DNA of 64,000 bases. It comes from an uncultured Shimia sp. (lineage in GTDB: Bacteria > Pseudomonadota > Alphaproteobacteria > Rhodobacterales > Rhodobacteraceae). The stretch spans positions 186,001 through 250,000 of the forward strand of contig NZ_CANLRL010000001.1 in NCBI RefSeq assembly GCF_947493595.1. Reading direction: 5' to 3'. Under the pieces are notes generated by a model. The model worked only from the letters and a program-made list of their open reading frames with translations, made no database searches and was not told the DNA's origin. The translations under genes and the position numbers were made by a program. Shown one piece after another: positions 13,348-51,491 of the stretch. Numbering within the stretch: position 1 is the stretch's first letter; each line of letters starts with the position of its first letter.

Positions 13348-13425
13348 GGCAAAACCCCCGCCACAAAACACTTAACAATTGTTAACAATTGGTAGCGGGG
13401 GATGGTTAGCGAAAGGTTAATTCGC

Positions 13426-29168: not shown

Positions 29169-29192
29169 TTATTTCGAATATTGTCGAAATAA
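29169..29192. promoter_or_regulatory. ArsR operator copy 2 (perfect palindrome)
   Basis: Perfect 9-bp arms TTATTTCGA and TCGAAATAA are separated by six bases. The element lies in the divergent gap between arsR and the UDG-family gene, so either direction could be affected. Confidence 0.75.
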
Positions 29193-39608: not shown

Positions 39609-40388
39609 ATGCTGAGTTACCAACACATCTACCACGCCGGCAATCTGGCCGATGTTCAGAAACACGCGCTTTTGGCGGTGATGCTGGAATACATGGGGCA
39701 AAAGCCCAAACCAATGAGCTATTTGGAGACCCACGCGGCGCGTGGTGTCTATCAGTTGGACGATGCGGCGGCTGTGAAAACCGGTGAGGCGGAGGCTGGT
39801 ATTGCCAAAGTGGCGCAGTGGTTTGCGTCGGACCATCCCTACAAACGGGCGTTAACAGCTGTGCAGGAGCGGCATGGCGACGTGGCTTATCCGGGCTCGC
39901 CCGCCATTGCGCAGGCGTTGTTGCGAGCGCAGGACAGCATGCAGCTTTGCGAATTGCACCCGCAGGAAGCGACGGCGCTACGGCAAGCCATGCGCGGCAG
40001 TGGCGCGAAAGTGCATCAAAAAGACGGGTTTGAGGCCGTCATGGGGATTTGCCCACCAACTCCGCGCCGTGGTGTTCTGTTGATTGATCCAAGCTATGAG
40101 ATCAAGGACGATTACAAGACCCTGCCTGGGTGGATCGCCAATGTGCACCGCAAGTGGAATGTCGGTGTGATCGCGCTGTGGTATCCGATCTTGCGAGACG
40201 GGACACACAAGCAGATGGTGCAGGCCTTGGAGGCGAAAGGTTTCCCTAAGGTCCTACGGCATGAGGTGGAATTCCCCCCTGCAAAAGAGGGCCATCGTAT
40301 GATAGGGTCGGGCATGTTCATCATAAACGCGCCTTATGGATTACAAGCGGAGGCGCAGGACCTGACGAAGAGGTTTGCCAGCCTCTGA
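39609..40388 (+). CDS. rlmJ: 23S rRNA (adenine(2030)-N6)-methyltransferase
   Basis: A 259-residue SAM-dependent enzyme. The N-terminus MLSYQHIYHAGNLADVQKHALL is diagnostic for RlmJ. MSYLETHAARGVYQL contains the SAM-contacting residues, and the catalytic LIDPSYEIKDDY is the D/NPPY-type motif in its RlmJ form. LWYPI and the C-terminal GMFIINAPYGL complete the pattern. No clear SD. Monocistronic. Confidence 0.95.
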   Translation: MLSYQHIYHAGNLADVQKHALLAVMLEYMGQKPKPMSYLETHAARGVYQLDDAAAVKTGEAEAGIAKVAQWFASDHPYKRALTAVQERHGDVAYPGSPAIAQALLRAQDSMQLCELHPQEATALRQAMRGSGAKVHQKDGFEAVMGICPPTPRRGVLLIDPSYEIKDDYKTLPGWIANVHRKWNVGVIALWYPILRDGTHKQMVQALEAKGFPKVLRHEVEFPPAKEGHRMIGSGMFIINAPYGLQAEAQDLTKRFASL

Positions 40389-40440
40389 CCTCCGTTGACC
40401 CTGTGTCCCACGGCCAGATTTCGCATTCTCTAGGGTTGTG

Positions 40441-40455
40441 TTTCACATTGTGAAA
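40441..40455. promoter_or_regulatory. Perfect palindrome 1 upstream of the sulfatase operon
   Basis: TTTCACATTGTGAAA has 7+1+7 perfect symmetry. It directly abuts palindrome 2 and lies 26 bases upstream of a consensus TTGACA. Confidence 0.7.
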
Positions 40456-40470
40456 TCCACAAATTGTGGA
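40456..40470. promoter_or_regulatory. Perfect palindrome 2 upstream of the sulfatase operon
   Basis: TCCACAAATTGTGGA is also 7+1+7 and shares the CACA...TGTG core with palindrome 1. The two centres are 15 bases apart, so dimers would bind about one and a half turns apart. Confidence 0.7.
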
Positions 40471-40480
40471 GTAATTTCAA

Positions 40481-40509
40481 TTGACAGTAGAGTGAGGGTT
40501 GCGCACATT
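40481..40509 (+). promoter_or_regulatory. Possible promoter of the sulfatase operon
   Basis: A perfect -35 TTGACA lies 11 bases beyond the palindromes. The matching -10 (CACATT after 17 bases) is weak, so an activator may be needed (inference). Confidence 0.4.
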
Positions 40510-40594
40510 TTTGGCGTGGCACCTGACGGTTTTTGTTTGCCAAGATTTTTAGCCAAGATGTCTTTCAGGTGTGCTTATTTAAGGGAGTTTTGTT

Positions 40595-42169
40595 ATGGGT
40601 CTGAACCCAAAGAAGGCTGTCGTGCGCCTTTCAGCGGTGGCCGCTGTAATGACGACAGTTGCGACCGCACTGACGGCGCAGGAAAAACCCAACATTCTTG
40701 TGATCTGGGGCGATGATATCGGGCAATCCAATATCTCGGCCTACACCATGGGAATGATGGGCTATCAAACGCCAAACATAGACCGTGTGGCCGAAGAGGG
40801 CATGATTTTCACCGACTATTACGGTGAGCAATCTTGTACCGCAGGCCGTTCATCATTCATCACCGGCCAATCGGTGTTCCGCACAGGTCTGTCCAAAGTG
40901 GGCATGCCGGGCGCGCCAGAAGGTATGCAGGTGGAAGATCCAACGATTGCGGGTCTTTTGAAGGCAGAAGGCTATGTCACCGGGCAGTTTGGCAAAAACC
41001 ACCTGGGTGACCGCGATGAGATGCTGCCAACCAACCATGGTTTTGATGAGTTCTTTGGCAACCTCTACCACCTGAACGCAGAAGAAGAGCCAGAGAATGA
41101 GGACTACCCTCAGGATCCTGAATTCCGTGAGCGGTTTGGCCCTCGCGGTGTGATCAAGTCGTCGGCAGATGGCACAATCGAAGACACCGGTCCGCTGACC
41201 AAGAAGCGTATGGAGACTGTGGATGAAGAGACCGTTGCTGCGGCAATTGACTTCATCAAGCGCTCCAACGAGCAGGGTCAGCCATTCTTTGTCTGGTGGA
41301 GCGGCACGCGGATGCACTTCCGCACCCACGTCAAAGACGAGATGCGTCTGAAGGCGGATGAGATCGCTGGCAAACACATGGACGAGTACCAGGCAGGCAT
41401 GATCGAGCACGACATGCATGTGGGTCAGCTTCTGGATGTGCTGGACGAGCTTGGCATCTCTGATAACACCATTGTGCACTATTCCACCGACAACGGCCCG
41501 CATATGAACAGCTGGCCTGATGCGGCGATGACTCCGTTCCGCGGTGAGAAGAACACCAACTGGGAAGGTGGCTGGCGTGTGCCGTCCATGGTGCGTTGGC
41601 CGGGTAATATTGAAGCCGGATCGATCTCCAACAACATCATGCACCACATGGATTGGTTGCCAACATATCTTGCGGCGGCTGGTAACGCGGACATCAAGGA
41701 AAATCTGAAAGCCGGTGGCGTTCAGGCGATTGGCCGTGAGTACAAGGTGCATCTGGATGGCTACAACTTCCTGCCCTACCTGACCGGTGAGACCGAGGAG
41801 AGCCCACGTCGTGAGATTTTCTATTTCTCTGATGACGGCGATCTGACCGCGCTGCGCTACAACGACTGGAAGGTGATCTTCCTGGAGCACCGCTATCCGC
41901 AGACACTGCGGGCCTGGGCAGAGCCTTGGACAGAGCTGCGTATCCCGCTGTTGTTCAACCTGCGTCGTGACCCGTATGAGCGCTCTAATATCACCTCCAA
42001 CACCTACTGGGATTGGTATCTGGATCGCGTCTACCTACTGTTGCCAGCGGCTGGCTATGTGGGTGAATTCCTTGCAACATTTGAAGAATTCCCCCCACGT
42101 CAGAAGCCAGGCAGTTTCACCATTGGGGATGCCAAGGACAAGATCTTCAGCCAGATCGGCTCCAAGTAA
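40595..42169 (+). CDS. Exported arylsulfatase
   Basis: A 524-residue formylglycine sulfatase with a signal peptide (residues 1-28, ending ATALTAQ). PNILVIWGDDIGQSNISAY carries the Asp pair for Ca, the modified Cys81 lies in SCTAGRSSFITGQ (C-x-A-x-R), and GQFGKNHLGDRDE has the catalytic Lys/His. STDNGPHMNSW supplies the distal Asp-Asn ligands. A C-terminal GSFTIGDAKDK block is shared by this arylsulfatase group. It hydrolyses sulfate esters in the periplasm, but the natural substrate is unknown. No formylglycine-generating enzyme is in the window. SD AAGGGAG is strong. First gene of the MoxR/VWA/cytochrome cluster. Confidence 0.93.
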   Translation: MGLNPKKAVVRLSAVAAVMTTVATALTAQEKPNILVIWGDDIGQSNISAYTMGMMGYQTPNIDRVAEEGMIFTDYYGEQSCTAGRSSFITGQSVFRTGLSKVGMPGAPEGMQVEDPTIAGLLKAEGYVTGQFGKNHLGDRDEMLPTNHGFDEFFGNLYHLNAEEEPENEDYPQDPEFRERFGPRGVIKSSADGTIEDTGPLTKKRMETVDEETVAAAIDFIKRSNEQGQPFFVWWSGTRMHFRTHVKDEMRLKADEIAGKHMDEYQAGMIEHDMHVGQLLDVLDELGISDNTIVHYSTDNGPHMNSWPDAAMTPFRGEKNTNWEGGWRVPSMVRWPGNIEAGSISNNIMHHMDWLPTYLAAAGNADIKENLKAGGVQAIGREYKVHLDGYNFLPYLTGETEESPRREIFYFSDDGDLTALRYNDWKVIFLEHRYPQTLRAWAEPWTELRIPLLFNLRRDPYERSNITSNTYWDWYLDRVYLLLPAAGYVGEFLATFEEFPPRQKPGSFTIGDAKDKIFSQIGSK

Positions 42170-42223: not shown

Positions 42224-42261
42224 GATCTGGGGTGCGGCCCTGATGCAATTTGGATGGTCCT

Positions 42262-43254
42262 ATGACTTTGTTGACTTCGTTTAAAACAACTTGTTTGTCT
42301 TTGGCTCTGGTAGGCGTTGCCGGTGTTGGTTTGGCCGATCCGTTGCCGTCCTGGCAGGGGGCGTCCAAAGACCGGATCATCGCATTTGTCGAAGCGGTGT
42401 CTGAGGTTGGCGGGGCGGACTATGTGACGCCGGCAGACCGGATTGCGGTGTTTGATAATGACGGCACGCTTTGGGCCGAGCAGCCGATGTATTTCCAACT
42501 GTTTTTTGCGCTCGACCGTGTGGCCAAGATTGGGGCGGAAGATCCGTCTAAGTTGACCAGTGATGTGCTGAAGGCCGCCGCCGCGGGCGACATGGACGGT
42601 GTTTTGGCCGGTGGCAAGGAAGGGCTGATCGAGATTTTGGCGCTGTCCCATGCCAATCAGAACCTGGATGAGTTTTCTGCTGATGTGGCGGCGTGGGTTT
42701 CAGAGGCAAAGCACCCGACCACGGGGCTTGGCTATGATGAGATGACCTATCAGCCGATGGTCGAGCTGTTGCGGTACCTGCGGGACGAGGAGTTTAAGAC
42801 CTACATCGTCTCCGGCGGCGGTATCGATTTTATGCGGGTCTTCGCCGAGGACGTTTATGGCATTTCACCTGAGCAGACGATTGGCTCGTCGCTGACGTCA
42901 ACCTATGAGGTGGTCGACGGCGTTCCGACGATCATCAAGAATGACACGTTGTTCTTTAACGATGACAAAGGCGGCAAGCCGGTTGCGATCAACCACCATA
43001 TTGGCAAGCGGCCCATTATGGCAGTGGGCAACTCGGACGGCGATTTTGAGATGCTGGAATACACCACGGCGGGCGAGGGCGCACGGTTGGGCGTCTATAT
43101 CCACCACACCGATGGCGAGCGCGAATGGGCCTATGACCGTGAAGGGCACATTGGGGTGCTGAACCGCGGGTTGGATGAGGCTGACGCGCGTGGCTGGGTG
43201 CTGGTCGACATGAAAAACGAATGGACTCGGATTTTCACCGGTGAGGTGGAGTGA
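42262..43254 (+). CDS. Exported HAD-superfamily phosphatase
   Basis: A 330-residue protein with a Sec signal peptide (CLSLALVGVAGVGLADP). The HAD motif I FDNDGTLWAEQ is at 64-74 (nucleophile Asp65, general acid Asp67), motif II is YIVSGGGIDFMRVF, and motif IV is MAVGNSDGDFEML. The phosphoserine-phosphatase-like subfamily is indicated. It would act in the periplasm, where HAD enzymes are less common. The start has no clear SD and lies 92 bases after the sulfatase, behind a terminator-like hairpin. Its stop overlaps the moxR start (TGATG). Confidence 0.88.
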   Translation: MTLLTSFKTTCLSLALVGVAGVGLADPLPSWQGASKDRIIAFVEAVSEVGGADYVTPADRIAVFDNDGTLWAEQPMYFQLFFALDRVAKIGAEDPSKLTSDVLKAAAAGDMDGVLAGGKEGLIEILALSHANQNLDEFSADVAAWVSEAKHPTTGLGYDEMTYQPMVELLRYLRDEEFKTYIVSGGGIDFMRVFAEDVYGISPEQTIGSSLTSTYEVVDGVPTIIKNDTLFFNDDKGGKPVAINHHIGKRPIMAVGNSDGDFEMLEYTTAGEGARLGVYIHHTDGEREWAYDREGHIGVLNRGLDEADARGWVLVDMKNEWTRIFTGEVE

Positions 43255-44249
43255 TGGCGGCACTGGACGAGATCAATGCGCTGCGGGAGCGCATGGGTGA
43301 GAGCATCATTGGCCAGCGCGATGTGATTGACCGCTTGCTGATTGGGCTTTTGGCCAATGGCAACCTGCTATTGGAGGGCCTGCCGGGTTTGGCCAAGACG
43401 CGCGCGGTGAAGGCTCTGGCGAAGAACTTGGAATGTGACTACTCGCGGATCCAGTTCACGCCGGACCTGTTGCCAGCGGATGTGACCGGCACGGAGATGT
43501 ATGTGCAAGGCGCGGCGGATGGCGAGCAGTTCCGGTTTCAGCCGGGGCCGATTTTTGCCAATGTTGTGTTGGCTGATGAGATCAACCGCGCACCGGCAAA
43601 GGTGCAGGCGGCTCTGCTTGAAGCGATGGAAGAGCGGCAGGTGACGGTGGCAGGAACCACGCACCAGATGGAGCCATTGTTCATGGTGATGGCGACGCAG
43701 AACCCGGTGGAGCAAGAGGGGACGTATCCGCTGCCGGAAGCGCAGATGGACCGGTTCCTGATGCATGTGAACATTCTCTATCCACCGCTTGAGGACGAGA
43801 TCGAAGTGATCCGGCTGGTGCGCGGCGAGGAGCAGGTACAGTTGCAGGAACAGACAGCGGAGAAGGCTTCAAAAGCGCCGCGTGCACCGATTTCGCAGGA
43901 TGTGGTGTTCCAAGCGCGGCGCGAGATCGCAGGTCTGCATTGCGCCGAGGCGATGGAGGTCTATATGGCCACAATTGTGCAGGCCACGCGCACGCCAGTG
44001 GAGTTTGGCGAGAACCTGGCCAAATGGATTGAACTTGGTGGCAGCCCGCGGGCGTCACTGGCGCTGGATCGCTGTTCTCGGGCGCATGCCTGGATGAAGG
44101 GGCGCGATTACGTTGATCCCGAGGACATTCAAGCAATTGCGCCGGATGTGCTGCGGCATCGGTTGGCGTTGAGCTATGAGGCGCAGGGCAGCGGCGTGTC
44201 TGCCGATGACGTGGTGTCCGAATTGCTGACCTTGGTGGCGGTGCCGTAA
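43254..44249 (+). CDS. MoxR family AAA+ ATPase
   Basis: A 331-residue AAA+ chaperone-like ATPase. Walker A is LLEGLPGLAKTRAVKAL, Walker B is VVLADEINRAPAKVQAALLEAMEE, sensor 1 is MATQNPVEQEGTYPLPEAQMDRF, and the lid has GGSPRASLALDRCSRAHAW. MoxR proteins work with VWA-domain partners to mature or activate protein complexes, often by metal or cofactor insertion. The following five genes encode DUF58, DUF4381, two VWA proteins and BatD, the standard partner set. Confidence 0.95.
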   Translation: MAALDEINALRERMGESIIGQRDVIDRLLIGLLANGNLLLEGLPGLAKTRAVKALAKNLECDYSRIQFTPDLLPADVTGTEMYVQGAADGEQFRFQPGPIFANVVLADEINRAPAKVQAALLEAMEERQVTVAGTTHQMEPLFMVMATQNPVEQEGTYPLPEAQMDRFLMHVNILYPPLEDEIEVIRLVRGEEQVQLQEQTAEKASKAPRAPISQDVVFQARREIAGLHCAEAMEVYMATIVQATRTPVEFGENLAKWIELGGSPRASLALDRCSRAHAWMKGRDYVDPEDIQAIAPDVLRHRLALSYEAQGSGVSADDVVSELLTLVAVP

Positions 44250-44261
44250 GCGGAGGACGCG

Positions 44262-45245
44262 ATGCGAAACCGTGCAGCCTTATCGCGTGCCGGGGTGGCC
44301 CCGGATCGGTCGCCGTCTGAGGCCGCAGATGACCCGCGCATTCATGTGAGTTTGCAGGGGCTGCGGTCGTTGGAGCCAGCGGCGCGGGCGATTTCCTTTT
44401 TGCCAAAACAGCCCGCGCGGTCGGCTTTGCAGGGGCGGCATCGCTCGCGCATTCGCGGACGCGGTTTGGATTTTGAAGAACTGCGGGATTACCTGCCGGG
44501 TGATGATGTGCGCGCAATTGACTGGAAGGTCACGGCGCGGGCGGGGTCGCCCTATGTGCGGGTTTACACCGAGGAGCGGGACCGGCCGACACTGATAGTG
44601 GTCGATCAGCGCATGTCGATGTTTTATGGTACGGTGCACAATACCAAGGCGGTCACAGCGGCTGAATGTGCGGCGATTGTGGCGCATCGGGTGGCCAAAC
44701 AAGGCGACCGGGTGGGCGGTGTGGTGTTTGGCGACAGCGACATGGACGAGCTGCGCCCCGGACGGGGGCGGGCGGCGGTGACGCGATTTTTGACCTCGCT
44801 TGAGACGGCCAATCATGGGCTCACAGCGGATGCACCGAAAGTGACCCCGATGCCGTTTAACGATGTGCTGGCGGCGGTGGCACGGCTCGCGACGCGGGAT
44901 CATCTGGTGATCCTGATCAGTGATTTTGACGCCTGTGATGATGAGACAGAGCGACGGTTGGGCGCAATTGCGCTGAACAATGATGTGGTGCTTGGGCTGG
45001 TGGGTGATCCCAGCGCGGACGTGGTGCCAGAAACCGGCGAGGTGACGGCCTCAGACGGCCAGAAGCAAACCTTGTTGGATTTTCGGGCGGAAGAGGTGCG
45101 CGCAGGGTTGGCGCAGGTGACCGGATCACGGCGGGATCAGGTGGCAAAGTGGCAGACGAGGATGCGTCTTTCGGTTCTGTCGTTGACCACCGCTGAAGAC
45201 ACACTCGCGCAGGTGGTGCGGTTGCTGGGAGGGCGGGTGCGATGA
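44262..45245 (+). CDS. DUF58 domain protein
   Basis: A 327-residue cytosolic protein of the DUF58/VWA-like family found next to moxR. It shows HRSRIRGRGLDFEELRDYLPGDDVRAIDWKVTARAG, the invariant DUF58 block. VVDQRMSMFYG follows at the MIDAS position in altered form (D-x-x-x-S). The C-terminal half completes the VWA-like fold (LVILISDFDACDD). It probably docks on MoxR. It starts 12 bases after moxR and overlaps the next gene by four. Confidence 0.93.
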   Translation: MRNRAALSRAGVAPDRSPSEAADDPRIHVSLQGLRSLEPAARAISFLPKQPARSALQGRHRSRIRGRGLDFEELRDYLPGDDVRAIDWKVTARAGSPYVRVYTEERDRPTLIVVDQRMSMFYGTVHNTKAVTAAECAAIVAHRVAKQGDRVGGVVFGDSDMDELRPGRGRAAVTRFLTSLETANHGLTADAPKVTPMPFNDVLAAVARLATRDHLVILISDFDACDDETERRLGAIALNNDVVLGLVGDPSADVVPETGEVTASDGQKQTLLDFRAEEVRAGLAQVTGSRRDQVAKWQTRMRLSVLSLTTAEDTLAQVVRLLGGRVR

Positions 45246-45727
45246 GCGATGAGGCCACCGAAACCGTGGACAACGACAGCCTTGTGGGGCTGCTCAATCA
45301 GCTTGCCGAAGTGCCGGACACAGCGCCCGTGTCGATGATGCCGCAGACGGCCGGCTGGCTGATGGTGGCAGGGATTGTCTTGGCTGTGGCCCTGTGGCGC
45401 GGCTGGCGGATGTGGCAGCATTATCGGGCCAATGCCTATCGGCGGGCGGCGATGAAGGCATTGGCGCAGGCGGGGGAAGATCCGGCGGCAGTTTCAGGAA
45501 TTCTAAAGCGCGCAGCAATGGTGGCCTATGGGCGGCGGCGTGTGGCCGGGTTGAGCGGGCAGACTTGGGTTACGTTTTTGAGCGAGACCGGCGCGGGGCA
45601 GTTTCAGGATACCGCCTTGGTGAGTGCCGCCTATCAGAGCGGTCCAGCGCAAGCTGATCCGCAGTTGCTGGCGGCGGCGCGCGCGTGGATTACATCGCAT
45701 AAGGCACCGGAGGTGGAGGATGTTTGA
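45242..45727 (+). CDS. DUF4381 membrane protein
   Basis: A 161-residue protein with a single membrane helix near 38-57 (GWLMVAGIVLAVALWRGW) after an acidic N-terminus containing LVGLLNQLAEVP, a hallmark of DUF4381. The cytosolic C-terminal part is helical (RRAAMKALAQAGEDPAAV, RKR-type and AGLSGQTWVTFL). Always found in moxR/VWA operons; its biochemical role is unknown. It overlaps both neighbours, by four and eight bases. Confidence 0.85.
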   Translation: MSDEATETVDNDSLVGLLNQLAEVPDTAPVSMMPQTAGWLMVAGIVLAVALWRGWRMWQHYRANAYRRAAMKALAQAGEDPAAVSGILKRAAMVAYGRRRVAGLSGQTWVTFLSETGAGQFQDTALVSAAYQSGPAQADPQLLAAARAWITSHKAPEVEDV

Positions 45728-46703
45728 GCTGAGCCATCCTTGGGTGCTGTTGCTGCTGCCTTTGCCGCTGATCTGGCGGCGGGTGGTGCCGCCGTTTCGC
45801 CAACGGCAAGACGCGCTGCGGGTGCCGTTTTTTGACCAGATCGCGGAGGCCGCTGGGCTGACCGTGCGGAACGGTGCGGCGATTGTCGCGCATAAACGGC
45901 GGGCGTTGATTGGGGGCGGCCTAATGTGGGCGCTGTTGGTTTTGGCATTGGCAGGACCTGTGCGGCTGGGACCGCCGCAGGAGATCACCATGGCGACGCG
46001 GGATGTGATCCTGGCGATTGATATTTCCGGCAGCATGGACACACGCGATTTTCCCGGTGAGGATGGCAAGCCGGTGCAGCGTCTGGCGGCGGTGCAAGAG
46101 GTGGTCGAGGCGTTTCTGGCGGATCGGTCTGGTGACCGCGTGGCGCTGATTGTGTTTGGCACGCGGGCCTATGTACAGGCGCCATTAACCGAGGATCTGG
46201 ACACGGTGCGGGCGTTGTTGGCGCAAACCGAAGTGGGCATGGCGGGGCCGCATACGGCGCTGGGCGACTCGATTGGTTTGGCGATCAACACCTTTGAGGC
46301 CAGTGAGGTTGAGGAGCGGCTATTAATCCTGCTGTCGGATGGCAACGACACGGCGAGCCGGATGAGCCCGGTGAATGCCGCCGAAATTGCGCGGGACAAA
46401 GGTGTGCGCATGTTTGCGATTGGGGTGGGCGATCCGAAGGCAAGCGGCGAGGACCGGCTGGACATGACGTTGCTGAGAAATTTGGCGCAACGCACTGGGG
46501 GGGATGCGTATTTTGCCGCTGATGCGGACGCTTTGGACAGCATCTACGACGAGATTGATGCGCTGAATCCGCAGGAGGCCGACACGTTGAGTTGGCGGCC
46601 GCAGCAGGATTTGGCGCATTGGCCGTTGATGGCGGCTTTGGCGGTAGGGTTGATCTTGTTGATGTCGCTTTGGTTGCGGGATCAGGAGAGGATGCGGGCA
46701 TGA
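45720..46703 (+). CDS. VWA domain membrane protein (BatA-like)
   Basis: A 327-residue inner-membrane protein. The N-terminal helix SHPWVLLLLPLPLIWRRVVPP and a second helix near 60-78 precede a VWA domain. That domain has an intact MIDAS: ILAIDISGSMDTRD (DxSxS), GPHTALGDSIG (Thr) and LLSDGNDTAS (Asp). A last helix lies near 303-322. BatA-type proteins bind metal-dependent ligands and partner MoxR. ATG 45720 has GGAGG upstream; the longer track ORF is rejected. Confidence 0.93.
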   Translation: MFELSHPWVLLLLPLPLIWRRVVPPFRQRQDALRVPFFDQIAEAAGLTVRNGAAIVAHKRRALIGGGLMWALLVLALAGPVRLGPPQEITMATRDVILAIDISGSMDTRDFPGEDGKPVQRLAAVQEVVEAFLADRSGDRVALIVFGTRAYVQAPLTEDLDTVRALLAQTEVGMAGPHTALGDSIGLAINTFEASEVEERLLILLSDGNDTASRMSPVNAAEIARDKGVRMFAIGVGDPKASGEDRLDMTLLRNLAQRTGGDAYFAADADALDSIYDEIDALNPQEADTLSWRPQQDLAHWPLMAALAVGLILLMSLWLRDQERMRA

Positions 46704-48265
46704 CAGTGGACCTGTCGCTGTTCTTGGAGGCGTTCCACTTTCTGCGGCCCTGGTTGCTTGTGCTGGCTTTGCCGGTTGTGGTGACCTGGTGGCGGTTGCG
46801 TCAGAGGCGTGGCGCAACTGGGGGCAATGATGGCTGGTTGGCGCCGCATTTGGCAGAAGCGCTGACGGTGCCGGGGAATACGGCGGGCCGGGTGCAGCCG
46901 ATCGATGTGATCTCATTGGTGCTTTTGTTGTTGGCGGCGGCCGTGGCTGGCCCGAGTTGGACCCGTGCACCGACACCTTTTGCGGCCCAAACCGCGCCGC
47001 TGGTGGTGGTGATGCAGGTCACGCCGTCGATGGAGCAAACCGATGTGGCGCCGCAGCGGTTGGCGCGGGCGCGGCAGAAGACCATGGATTTGCTTGCCTT
47101 GCGCAGCGGCGCGCGCACGGCACTGGTGGCCTTTGCCGGAACCGCGCATGTGGTGGTGCCGATGAGTGAAGACCCTGGGGTGATGCAGCCCTATTTGGAA
47201 GGGCTGACGACAGAAGTGATGCCAATTGAAGGGTTGGACATTCAGGCCGGGTTTGCCACGGCGCAGGCGTTGTTGGCGCGGGAAGGGGCACCGGGGGGCG
47301 TGGTGTTCATGGTTGATGAGTTGTCCGCCAGTGCGGCAGCCGAGCTGGCGGAGGCTTGGGGACGGGATGGGGCTGAAGAGGGTGACGCCGCTGAGACTGT
47401 GGCTTCGATGAGTTTCCTGTTCCTGTTGCCGGAGGGCAAAGCCTTGCCTCAGGTGCCAGACGGAGCGTCGGCGACACGGGTGACGCCGGACAATCAGGAT
47501 GTGGCGGAGGTGGAGCGCTCGTTGGCATCGGCCTATCGCCGTGCGCAGTTGGAGGATGAGGCCCAGCCGTGGGAGGATCGCGGCGCGTGGTTGGCCTGGC
47601 CCGCGTTGATGCTGTTGCTGCTGTGGTTTCGACGTGGCATGGCAGTGCGCTGGGCGGGGCAGGCCGCGTTGGCGCTGTGGCTTTTGCATCCGGGGCAGGT
47701 GCAGGCAGAGGGCTGGCGCGATTGGTTTTTGACGCCGGATCAGCAGGGGTGGCGGGCCTTTGAGCGCAAGGAATACGTCGATGCTGCGGAGGCGTTTGAA
47801 GACCCGTATTTGCGGGGCGTCGCGCTTTATCGAAGTGGTCAATATGAGATCGCGGCACAAGAGATGGCGCGTCTGGACACGGCGGAGGCGGCGTTTTTAC
47901 AGGGCATGGCTCACCTGAAGTCGCGCGGCTACCGCGATGGTGTCCGGGCGTTTGAGCGGGCTTTGGAGATCGATCCAGAGCACAAGGGCGCGCAGCAGAA
48001 CTTGCAGATTTCTAAAGCCATTGTTGAGTATGTTGAGACCACTCGGGAGCAATCTGACACGGGTGAGGACACCGGGATTGGCGCGGATGATGTGGTGTTT
48101 GACAATGAAAGTGGGCGTGGGGAGGACACGCAAATCGAGGTGCCGGAAGAAGACGCACCGGCGCATTTGTCAACGGAACAATGGATGCGCACGGTGGACA
48201 CGCGCACGGAGGATTTCCTGAAACAGCGGTTCCGACTTGAAGCGGCGCGGGGGGAGCGGCCATGA
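46700..48265 (+). CDS. VWA-TPR fusion membrane protein (BatB/BatC-like) with degenerate MIDAS
   Basis: A 521-residue protein. Helices lie near 16-32 and 66-84. A VWA domain (95-270) follows, then a helix near 305-322, a periplasmic region and TPRs (about 355-450: AFERKEYVDAAEAFE, AFLQGMAHLKSRGYRDGVRAFERALEIDP), ending in an acidic tail. The MIDAS reads VVVMQVTPSMEQTD, with Gln for the metal Asp, so metal binding is probably lost, unlike BatA next door. It fuses what are separate BatB and BatC proteins in some species. ATGA overlaps on both sides. Confidence 0.9.
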   Translation: MTVDLSLFLEAFHFLRPWLLVLALPVVVTWWRLRQRRGATGGNDGWLAPHLAEALTVPGNTAGRVQPIDVISLVLLLLAAAVAGPSWTRAPTPFAAQTAPLVVVMQVTPSMEQTDVAPQRLARARQKTMDLLALRSGARTALVAFAGTAHVVVPMSEDPGVMQPYLEGLTTEVMPIEGLDIQAGFATAQALLAREGAPGGVVFMVDELSASAAAELAEAWGRDGAEEGDAAETVASMSFLFLLPEGKALPQVPDGASATRVTPDNQDVAEVERSLASAYRRAQLEDEAQPWEDRGAWLAWPALMLLLLWFRRGMAVRWAGQAALALWLLHPGQVQAEGWRDWFLTPDQQGWRAFERKEYVDAAEAFEDPYLRGVALYRSGQYEIAAQEMARLDTAEAAFLQGMAHLKSRGYRDGVRAFERALEIDPEHKGAQQNLQISKAIVEYVETTREQSDTGEDTGIGADDVVFDNESGRGEDTQIEVPEEDAPAHLSTEQWMRTVDTRTEDFLKQRFRLEAARGERP

Positions 48266-49542
48266 GGTGGTGTGTTGTCTTTGTTCTGTGGTTGGCAAAT
48301 GTTGCTGCGGTTTGGGCGCAGGATGTGCAGCCTAAGCTTGAGGTGACTTTTGAGGAAAACGAGACCGTGCCGGGGCAACCGCTGACCCTGCGGCTAACGG
48401 TGTTGGTGCCGACGTTTATGCCTGACCCGCCAATGTGGCCGGATTTTGAAACGCCGAACCTGATGGTGCGGCTGCCGTCCAAGGCGAGCTCGCCGACCAG
48501 CAAGAGCATTGGCGGGGAAACCTGGTCCGGAATTTCTCGGCGCTATCAAATCACACCGGTGGTGCCGGGCACGTTTGAGATTCCGGCGGGTGAGGTGAAG
48601 GTGCGCTATCGGGCACTTGAGGGCAGCGATGTTGTGGAAGCGTCGTTGCCAGTGCCTGCGCAAACGGTGACGGGTGTTGTGCCGGAGGGGGCTGAAGGGT
48701 TGGACCCTTTTGTGGCGGCAGATAGGCTGACCCTGACGCAGACCGTTGAGGGGGAGACCACGGGGCTGGACGCCGGTGCAAGTTTTACGCGGGTCCTTGA
48801 GGTGAAGATCGAAGGTGTGTCGCCGATGTTCTTGCCATCTGTGACGCCGGAAGAAGGGCTTGCGGGGCTGCGTGCGTATCTAGAAAGCCCTATGGCCGAG
48901 GAGACGGAAAACCGCGGCGTGGTCAGTGGTTCACGCGTGGAGAAGACGGTTTACGTGGTTGAAGGCGGCGTGGATGGCGTGCTGCCTGAGGTGCGTTTGC
49001 AGTGGTTCAATCTGAAAAGCGGGAAAGTGGAAGAGGCCGTGGTGGAGGCCATTGAGGTGCAGGCGGATGCGCCGGTTTTGGCGTCCAATGCGGAGCCGCT
49101 GGATGTTGACAATATCGTGCGGTGGGGCGCGGCATTGGTGGCTTTCTTCCTTGTTGTATGGGCTATTGTGCGTTGGGGTATGCCGGTTCTGCACCGATCT
49201 TGGGAGAGAGCCCAGGAGCGGCGGTTGCAGAGCGCGGGGTACGCTTATAGCGGCATCAAGGCTGCGATGCAGAAACGGGATTTGAGTGCCGCCAAACAGG
49301 CCTATTTGCGTTGGGCGCGCAAGGTGCCACTTGCCGGGCAGAAGACCGAGAAAGCGATTGAAGAAGCCTTTTTGCAGATTGGCGCGGCGCGGTTTGGCAA
49401 TGGCAGTGCAACCGAGGAAGCGCGGGCTTGGGCGCAGCTCAAAACACTCTGCCATAGCAAACACCGCGAAACTCGCTATCGTCACGACACGAAGACACCG
49501 GATTTGCCCCCGCTTAATCCGGTCTCCACGCATCAGAACTGA
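48262..49542 (+). CDS. BatD-like membrane protein
   Basis: A 426-residue exported protein: signal peptide (CVVFVLWLANVAAVWAQ), about 250 periplasmic residues of beta-sandwich character (VPGQPLTLRLTVLVPTF, GISRRYQITPVVPGTFEIPAGEVKV), a membrane helix near 280-300 and a cytosolic helical tail. This is the BatD/oxygen-tolerance layout. It presumably presents a periplasmic surface for the substrate of the module (inference). It is coupled to the VWA-TPR gene by a four-base overlap. Confidence 0.85.
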   Translation: MRWCVVFVLWLANVAAVWAQDVQPKLEVTFEENETVPGQPLTLRLTVLVPTFMPDPPMWPDFETPNLMVRLPSKASSPTSKSIGGETWSGISRRYQITPVVPGTFEIPAGEVKVRYRALEGSDVVEASLPVPAQTVTGVVPEGAEGLDPFVAADRLTLTQTVEGETTGLDAGASFTRVLEVKIEGVSPMFLPSVTPEEGLAGLRAYLESPMAEETENRGVVSGSRVEKTVYVVEGGVDGVLPEVRLQWFNLKSGKVEEAVVEAIEVQADAPVLASNAEPLDVDNIVRWGAALVAFFLVVWAIVRWGMPVLHRSWERAQERRLQSAGYAYSGIKAAMQKRDLSAAKQAYLRWARKVPLAGQKTEKAIEEAFLQIGAARFGNGSATEEARAWAQLKTLCHSKHRETRYRHDTKTPDLPPLNPVSTHQN

Positions 49543-49553
49543 AAGACAGCTGT

Positions 49554-51491
49554 ATGACATTTAAGACTTTTTTCGGCATGGCCCTAGCGTGCTTGATACT
49601 GGGCTCCGCCGGATATGCGCAGACGCCGCATGGCGCGGGTGTGCCGGACTATGTTGGGTCAGAGGCCTGTCAGGACTGTCATGCAGAAGCCTACGACGCG
49701 TGGAAAATCTCGCATCATGGCGAGGCCTGGCGAATGCCAGGAGACGACAGTTTTGTCGGGGCATTCGCGGGAGAAAGTTATGAACATGACGGCATGCGCG
49801 CGACGTTTGATAGAGATGGCGACGCCTATGTGGTGACGGTGCGCGAGAAAGACGGCGTGGAAGCGCGTTATGAGATGCAGTCCGTGGGCGGGGTGCATCC
49901 GCTAGAACATCCGATCCTGTCGACCGGCAAGGGGCGGTTGCAAAGCTTTGATGTGGTCTGGGATGTGGAGCAGCAGCGGTGGTATCACCTTTATCCGGAG
50001 CAGGACTTGCCACCCGAAGATGCGTTTCACTGGACCGGTGTTTACAAAAACTGGAACAGCCGGTGTGCGGAATGTCACGCGACCGGGTTTGAGAAGAATT
50101 ACGATTTTCAGACCAAGCGATACGCAAGCCAGCAGGTTGAAATTGGCGTGGGCTGTGAGGCGTGTCATGGCCCCGGTGCGGCGCATTTAACTATTGTCGA
50201 GGGCGCTAAGCCAGAGAGTTTTGCGGTGGCTTTGGGTGACTGGGGATTTACGGCGACGATGTCAGAACCTGTGGCGGCAATGGAGCAATGTGCGGGCTGT
50301 CATGCGCGGCGTGAGGGTTTTGGCAATGGCAATCCGCTGCCGGGAGAGGCCTTTGCTGACAACTACAACCTCGCGATGCTGCGACCCGGATTGTATCATG
50401 CCGACGGTCAGATTTTGGATGAGGTCTATGTCTACGGGTCCTTCCTGCAGTCCAAGATGTCTCAGAAAGGCGTGACCTGCGCCAATTGCCATGAGCCACA
50501 TTCGGCGGAGGTTGTGGCGGAGGGCAACGCGGTTTGCACGCAGTGCCATTCGCCAGCGGGCAATCGCGAGTTCGAGAGCTTGCGGTTGGCTGATTATGAG
50601 GATGTGGCGCACACCAACCACCCCGAGGGCACCGAGGCAGCGCAATGTGTGAGCTGTCACATGGTGGACAAGGTCTACATGGGCACCGATCCGCGCCGGG
50701 ATCACAGCTTTCGTGTGCCGCGTCCTGATCTGAGCGATGCGCTGGACAGCCCGAATGCCTGTACCACCTGTCACGACGACAAAAGCAATGACTGGGCAGC
50801 AGGCAAAGTGCGCGACTGGTTCCCCGAAGGGCGCTGGCAGGAGCCGCATTATGGTGAGGTTTTGGCGAAAGGGCGCGCCAATCCGCGCGCTGCGGCGGGA
50901 GACTTGATGGGGCTGGCACAGGATGAAACTAAGCCGAATTTGGTGCGGGCAACCGCCTTGTGGCTTTTGGGGCCGGGGGCGACAACACTGGACTTGTTGG
51001 AGCTGGGGGTGTTCTTGGAGAATGAGGATCCGCAAATTCGTGTTGGCGCACTCAATGCGTTGCGCGCGCGGGCAGTCGTGGCGACCGCGCCTTATTTGTT
51101 GCAAGGCTTGAATGACGAAGTGCGGGCGGTGCGCTTGGCGGCGGCGCGGGCAATTATGAGCCAGAGGCCGGATCGCTTGCCGGATAGCCTGCGGGCGGCT
51201 TTGGGACAGGCGTATCGCGAGTTTGGCACGGTGGTGCAGAACCAGATGGATTTTGCCGAAGCGCATTTGCAAGTGGCGGGCTATTCGATGGTGTCGGGCA
51301 ACTTACCATCTGCCATTGCGGCCTTGTCTGAGGCGGTAAAGCTCAATCCGCAAAACCCTCAAGCCTGGAGCAGCCTGATCCGCATGACCGCACAGGTCGA
51401 AGGGCGCCGGGCGGCGCAAAAACGCATGCGACAGGCGTTGGCCTACAATCCTGACGATCCGGATTTGCAGCAGTTGGCGGAGCAATTCTGA
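49554..51491 (+). CDS. Octaheme c-type cytochrome with C-terminal HEAT/TPR region
   Basis: A 645-residue periplasmic protein with a signal peptide (ALACLILGSAGYAQ). Eight CxxCH haem c motifs have His at 43, 175, 205, 250, 313, 332, 369 and 407 (CQDCH, CAECH, CEACH, CAGCH, CANCH, CTQCH, CVSCH, CTTCH). Residues about 460-540 resemble HEAT repeats (DPQIRVGALNALRAR, DEVRAVRLAAARAIM) and 565-640 form TPRs. It belongs to the cytochrome c554/NrfB-like multihaem group, but the electron partner is unknown. It starts 11 bases after the BatD-like gene, so it is almost certainly part of the same operon. Confidence 0.93.
   Translation: MTFKTFFGMALACLILGSAGYAQTPHGAGVPDYVGSEACQDCHAEAYDAWKISHHGEAWRMPGDDSFVGAFAGESYEHDGMRATFDRDGDAYVVTVREKDGVEARYEMQSVGGVHPLEHPILSTGKGRLQSFDVVWDVEQQRWYHLYPEQDLPPEDAFHWTGVYKNWNSRCAECHATGFEKNYDFQTKRYASQQVEIGVGCEACHGPGAAHLTIVEGAKPESFAVALGDWGFTATMSEPVAAMEQCAGCHARREGFGNGNPLPGEAFADNYNLAMLRPGLYHADGQILDEVYVYGSFLQSKMSQKGVTCANCHEPHSAEVVAEGNAVCTQCHSPAGNREFESLRLADYEDVAHTNHPEGTEAAQCVSCHMVDKVYMGTDPRRDHSFRVPRPDLSDALDSPNACTTCHDDKSNDWAAGKVRDWFPEGRWQEPHYGEVLAKGRANPRAAAGDLMGLAQDETKPNLVRATALWLLGPGATTLDLLELGVFLENEDPQIRVGALNALRARAVVATAPYLLQGLNDEVRAVRLAAARAIMSQRPDRLPDSLRAALGQAYREFGTVVQNQMDFAEAHLQVAGYSMVSGNLPSAIAALSEAVKLNPQNPQAWSSLIRMTAQVEGRRAAQKRMRQALAYNPDDPDLQQLAEQF

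Follow-up and report, generated by a model that had tools for sequence, protein, structure and literature searches.

What controls the sulfatase operon of this locus, and through which sequence? The 206-bp gap between rlmJ (39609-40388, +) and the gene for a predicted secreted sulfatase contains two abutting palindromes, which the first-pass annotation had taken for tandem operators under the control of a distant regulator gene. Both 15-mers are indeed perfect 7+1+7 palindromes, and the TTGACA reported downstream of them lies 10 nt past the second one. The features of the gap and of the operon that follows are listed below; positions refer to the window, that is, the whole 64,000-nt stretch of DNA analysed here, and G000 is the source genome.

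40419-40423, +: upstream half-site TTTCG, starting 22 nt ahead of the core
40441-40455, +: first palindrome, core operator TTTCACATTGTGAAA (TTYCA-N5-TGAAA), predicted recognition site of a sulfatase-linked LysR-type regulator
40456-40470, +: second palindrome TCCACAAATTGTGGA, which G000, G311 and G312 (and L099) alone possess and which fits no motif found
40475-40480, +: TTTCAA abutting the -35 box; TTCAATTGACA is common to all seven site-bearing promoters
40481-40486, +: predicted -35 box TTGACA, invariant in the seven promoters
40504-40509, +: predicted -10 box CACATT, separated from the -35 box by 17 nt, with A2, T5 and T6 invariant in 7/7
40595-42169, +: predicted secreted sulfatase (PF00884, PF14707) with a C-T-A-G-R active-site motif, first gene of the operon
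42250-51491, +: probable rest of the operon, encoding a HAD hydrolase, a MoxR ATPase, a DUF58 protein, a DUF4381 protein, two VWA proteins, one protein without a Pfam family and a multihaem cytochrome c with HEAT/TPR repeats

Judging from strand and spacing, the genes at 42250-51491 are probably co-transcribed with the sulfatase gene. Linkage of sulfatase, HAD, MoxR, DUF58 and VWA genes was also observed in many Rhodobacterales and Gammaproteobacteria (L107, L118, L138, L157, L162, L164, L169, L173), with a multihaem cytochrome gene near the cluster in some of these genomes.

The chance occurrence of such a pair had been called very unlikely, and among 5000 dinucleotide shuffles of the gap one palindrome of this type arose in 46 and two arose in only 1. 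Once the first palindrome is accepted as functional, however, a second one arising by chance costs only about 1%. In the window as a whole, nine palindromes of at least 7+1+7 were observed against roughly four expected (64000/4^7, a rough estimate). Inverted repeats elsewhere in the window include an overlapping pair of perfect palindromes at 13372-13391 (TTAACAATTGTTAA and CAATTGTTAACAATTG) and, at 29169-29192, TTATTTCGAATATTGTCGAAATAA, with 9-bp arms and a 6-bp spacer. The core said to be common to the two palindromes of the gap is shared as far as the half-sites CACA and TGTG go, but these are spaced differently, as CACA-T-TGTG (1 nt) in the first and CACA-AAT-TGTG (3 nt) in the second.

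Conservation upstream of orthologous sulfatase genes separated the two palindromes. We aligned promoters from genomes in which rlmJ lies upstream of the sulfatase gene, seven of which bear the site (G000, G311, G312, G316, G305, G317 and G303); the source genome belongs to a genus near Shimia, a Shimia metagenome-assembled genome carrying the sulfatase at 97%. Both palindromes are intact in G311 and G312. In G316, G305 and G317 the first is present as TTYCATATTGTGAAA and the right arm of the second is absent, and the more distant G303 has TTTCACTTTCTGAAA at the same position, again without the second. The check thus favoured the first palindrome, present in all seven promoters, and went against the second, which is absent from four of them (G316, G305, G317, G303). 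In each of these Shimia-like promoters, TTYCA-N5-TGAAA stands exactly 25 nt ahead of TTGACA; most of the intervening sequence varies, as does the middle of the dyad between its constant TTYCA and TGAAA arms. The upstream half-site reads TTTCA in four promoters, TTTCG in two and TGTCG in one, so that TTTCR occurs 22 nt upstream of the core in 6/7. The -10 box follows the pattern [CG]A[CT][AT]TT, 17 nt past TTGACA, and its poor match to TATAAT is what we infer would be expected of an activator-dependent promoter. At other sulfatase orthologues in Rhodobacterales and Gammaproteobacteria, the first-palindrome site was not found. Among the three closest genomes (G000, G311, G312) only 27 of the 206 gap positions vary, and at that rate 15 consecutive unchanged positions are expected about 12% of the time; the unchanged second palindrome in these genomes is therefore no evidence of function.

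A candidate for the regulator gene that the genome scan proposed earlier was to find is a LysR-type gene, G000:C4:142523-143437, which is divergent from a second sulfatase gene and whose product contains HTH_1 (PF00126) and LysR_substrate (PF03466) domains above cut-off. In the source genome, TTTCA lies between these two genes, with TTTCAGATTGCGAAA 21 nt further on. This composite (TTTCA, 21 nt, TTYCA-N5-YGAAA) adjoins the LysR gene divergent from the second sulfatase gene in 11 genomes of the genus, with a distance from half-site to core that is always 21 nt, both at the close LysR orthologues and at the LysR genes most nearly related to them. Scanning 25 whole genus genomes gave 22 composite matches against one for the backward control pattern (11 adjoining LysR, six at the sulfatase-operon promoter and five at unrelated places elsewhere), although these counts are not blind and describe rather than test, as the pattern had been widened (N16 or N17, TTTCR, TTYCA) to admit the window site. 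The 4.28-Mb source genome has just two matches, one at the sulfatase-operon promoter and the other in the LysR gap. Across the family, a stricter pattern returned 25 further matches; one outside the genus falls between genes of the same kinds, a LysR and a sulfatase (L307), and the others are apparently due to chance. A cleaner measure than these counts is a weight matrix trained on the LysR loci alone, which scored the first-palindrome site at 22.5 bits, a value reached nowhere else in 1.84 million background positions, window included, and the second palindrome at -12.3 bits, like random sequence.

Near-copies of the first palindrome occur elsewhere in the source genome (L002, L003, L005 and others), and the composite pattern did not recover them. 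At L002 (G000:C1:61561-61575) and in G307 (G307:C9:6296-6312, L195), the perfect palindrome TTTCACAAWGTGAAA is followed by AAGTC; a gene for a peptide ABC transporter ATPase lies downstream, and the arrangement is conserved. The second sulfatase gene (G000:C4:140859-142400; L254, and L008 1-1440) appears split into two frames near the N-terminus in the source genome, through decay or a sequencing error. If it is truly frameshifted, the operon in the window would be the main target of the LysR protein in this organism.

The site and the regulator also travel together. Across 21 genus genomes with a sulfatase orthologue, the site was present in all seven that encode a close LysR (at least 63% identity) and in none of the other 14 (Fisher test, 9e-6, without correction for relatedness). 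G298, G299, G308, G309 and G320, which have no site at the sulfatase-operon promoter, encode more distantly related LysR proteins (40-53%); when these genomes are counted as LysR-positive, the association has p = 0.007. G307 is nested among site-bearing genomes in both the sulfatase and the rlmJ trees, yet has neither site nor LysR, and G303, with both, groups with the site-less G308 and G309 in the same two trees. In G316 the second sulfatase is gone while the LysR (93%) and the sites at both loci remain, as expected if the operon in the window is a target. In G305, a second sulfatase was not seen within the stretch read beside the LysR gene.

What we observe is a composite that is shared by the two loci, is nearly unique in the genome, is co-distributed with the regulator and keeps a fixed distance to the promoter. 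On this sequence evidence, the first palindrome together with the upstream TTTCR is probably (roughly 0.8) the recognition site of the distant, sulfatase-linked LysR protein encoded at G000:C4:142523-143437, with the same composite used there and in trans. The earlier proposal of control by a regulator encoded elsewhere is thereby supported, the composite and its co-distribution both pointing to this gene. Two differences speak against the assignment, as do the distant LysR relatives in site-less genomes: the half-site lies 22 nt from the core at the window promoter but 21 nt at the LysR loci, where the dyad also comes about 9 bp closer to the -35 box than at the window promoter.

Could the second palindrome nevertheless have a role? 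The idea of tandem operators, serving either a single dimeric regulator or two regulators related to each other, draws support from the palindromes' perfection, their abutment, their rarity as a pair in the gap and their unchanged state in G311 and G312. We consider it very improbable, given that the second is missing from G316, G305, G317 and G303 (its invariance in the three closest genomes being uninformative), that the spacing of the half-sites differs between the two, and that the second scores -12.3 bits to the first one's +22.5; the real second element appears to be the TTTCR at 40419-40423. Tandem IclR sites have centres 18-22 bp apart (PMC8222616), compared with 15 bp here. Nor is there a genome-wide family for the second palindrome: every further copy that a search of the genome gave has two or more mismatches, and the matches are fewer than those of the backward control. 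No other good copy in the genome and no partner regulator were found, which makes it unlikely that this sequence is a recent extra operator through which an unrelated regulator provides a second input in the G000/G311/G312 subclade. Retention in three species of this perfect 15-bp dyad, positioned between the LysR core and the -35 box, would fit such an addition, but neutral conservation explains its persistence. The second palindrome is probably a coincidence.

The first palindrome has a rival interpretation of its own, as an IclR-type operator of BhcR, which responds to glyoxylate and regulates the beta-hydroxyaspartate cycle. The IclR consensus, WTTYCRYW3RYGRAAW (PMC8222616), is matched by the window site and by five relatives with a single mismatch each, and by G303 with two. 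Furthermore, the bhcR-proximal operator of the genus reads TTTTCATATTGTGAAT, and two other genera carry TTTCATATTGTGAAAT ahead of bhcR, a sequence that agrees with the G305/G317 site at each of 16 nt. Distribution argues against it: G303 has the site, with BhcR undetected at E 1e-15, and G307 encodes BhcR at 91% and has no site, the opposite of what control by BhcR predicts, and BhcR is rejected on these grounds. The centre of the G303 site, CTTTC, breaks the IclR half-site and leaves TTTCA/TGAAA intact, the upstream half-site is left unexplained, and across the genus the site tracks LysR. Taken together, a BhcR operator is an improbable reading. The regulator families suggested at first (IclR, GntR or LacI) are accordingly not favoured, as the distribution points to the LysR type and the best IclR candidate fails in two genomes. 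Two other IclR genes were considered and rejected. The conserved region upstream of the one at G000:C6:74972 carries TTYCATTATTTGAAA and a group-2-like element, without the ATTGTG core; the upstream gap of that at G000:C3:439685 (L182) contains TTTCCGCATGGTGGAA-like sequence, with half-sites that resemble the second palindrome but a 3-nt spacer. The bhc locus itself carries a conserved probable BhcR (IclR) operator, ATTCACAATATGAAAA, adjoining bhcR in the genus (G000:C9:71572-71586; L011, L212); another conserved element, TGAAATCATTTTTCA, is found next to bhcA.

Returning to the LysR protein, it probably activates the sulfatase operon in trans. A tetramer would be bound over about 40419-40486, with the dyad centre (40448) some 68 bp before the predicted start (near 40516), a position from which such regulators activate; the spacing to the -35 box is fixed in all seven promoters. 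A cognate inducer, which may be a sulfate ester or what remains of it after desulfation, would shift the second LysR dimer onto the -35 region, possibly contacting TTTCAA (40475-40480) as an activation site, and the shifted dimer would help RNA polymerase at the weak -10 box. The second palindrome would have no essential part in this. Activation is suggested by a dyad centre at about -68 from the predicted start, a good -35 box, a poor -10 box and the conserved sequence abutting the -35 box. More tentatively, and with the odds somewhat against it, the LysR protein may sense a sulfate ester and coordinate two unlinked sulfatase loci with the MoxR/VWA (Bat-like)/multihaem cytochrome operon, which might encode an envelope electron-transfer or chaperone machine.

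An unexplained palindrome has thus become a testable link between a regulator and its target. This is very probably a case of ordinary, well-supported gene regulation, in which the likely regulator of an uncharacterised operon can be named. The LysR protein and its inducer would offer a handle on an operon in which the gene for a secreted sulfatase stands with those for MoxR/VWA proteins and a multihaem cytochrome; many marine bacteria have this combination. The locus also holds two lessons: of two palindromes that stand out equally, one can be a coincidence, and a core identical to the operator of another regulator, here BhcR, can mislead unless presence and absence of the regulator are checked.

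We found no literature on LysR control of sulfatases in Rhodobacteraceae; among the nearest known systems are two from Pseudomonas. SftR of Pseudomonas putida is reportedly a LysR-type regulator of sulphate ester metabolism (Kahnert et al. 2002, cited in PMC3827995), and the likeness would be that of a LysR-type protein tied to this metabolism. SdsB1 is linked to the alkylsulfatase SdsA1, a sulfatase of the metallo-beta-lactamase fold. It resembles the present case as a LysR-type transcriptional regulator (LTTR) adjoining a sulfatase gene, but the sulfatases here belong to the formylglycine-type family. SdsB1 (PA0739) of Pseudomonas aeruginosa is an LTTR of known role (PMC8407307). The BhcR operator of Paracoccus and relatives (IclR family) has a near-identical core, TTTCAYATTGTGAA, but differs in its mismatched genome distribution and in that the upstream half-site is not part of it. 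In general, an LTTR spans 50-60 bp: its T-N11-A recognition site, a dyad whose arms are conserved and whose middle varies, is near -65, and the activation site is at -35 (PMC8407307). The window site departs from this LTTR box in its predicted action in trans, far from the regulator gene, and in its extra promoter-distal TTTCR. In other respects the two are alike: T-N11-A is present inside the first palindrome (40441-40455) as TTCACATTGTGAA, and the site is an interrupted dyad with conserved arms and a variable middle, upstream of a sigma-70-like promoter and at about -68 from its predicted start. As in LTTR systems, the regulator combines HTH_1 with LysR_substrate, and its divergent partner gene has the same site.
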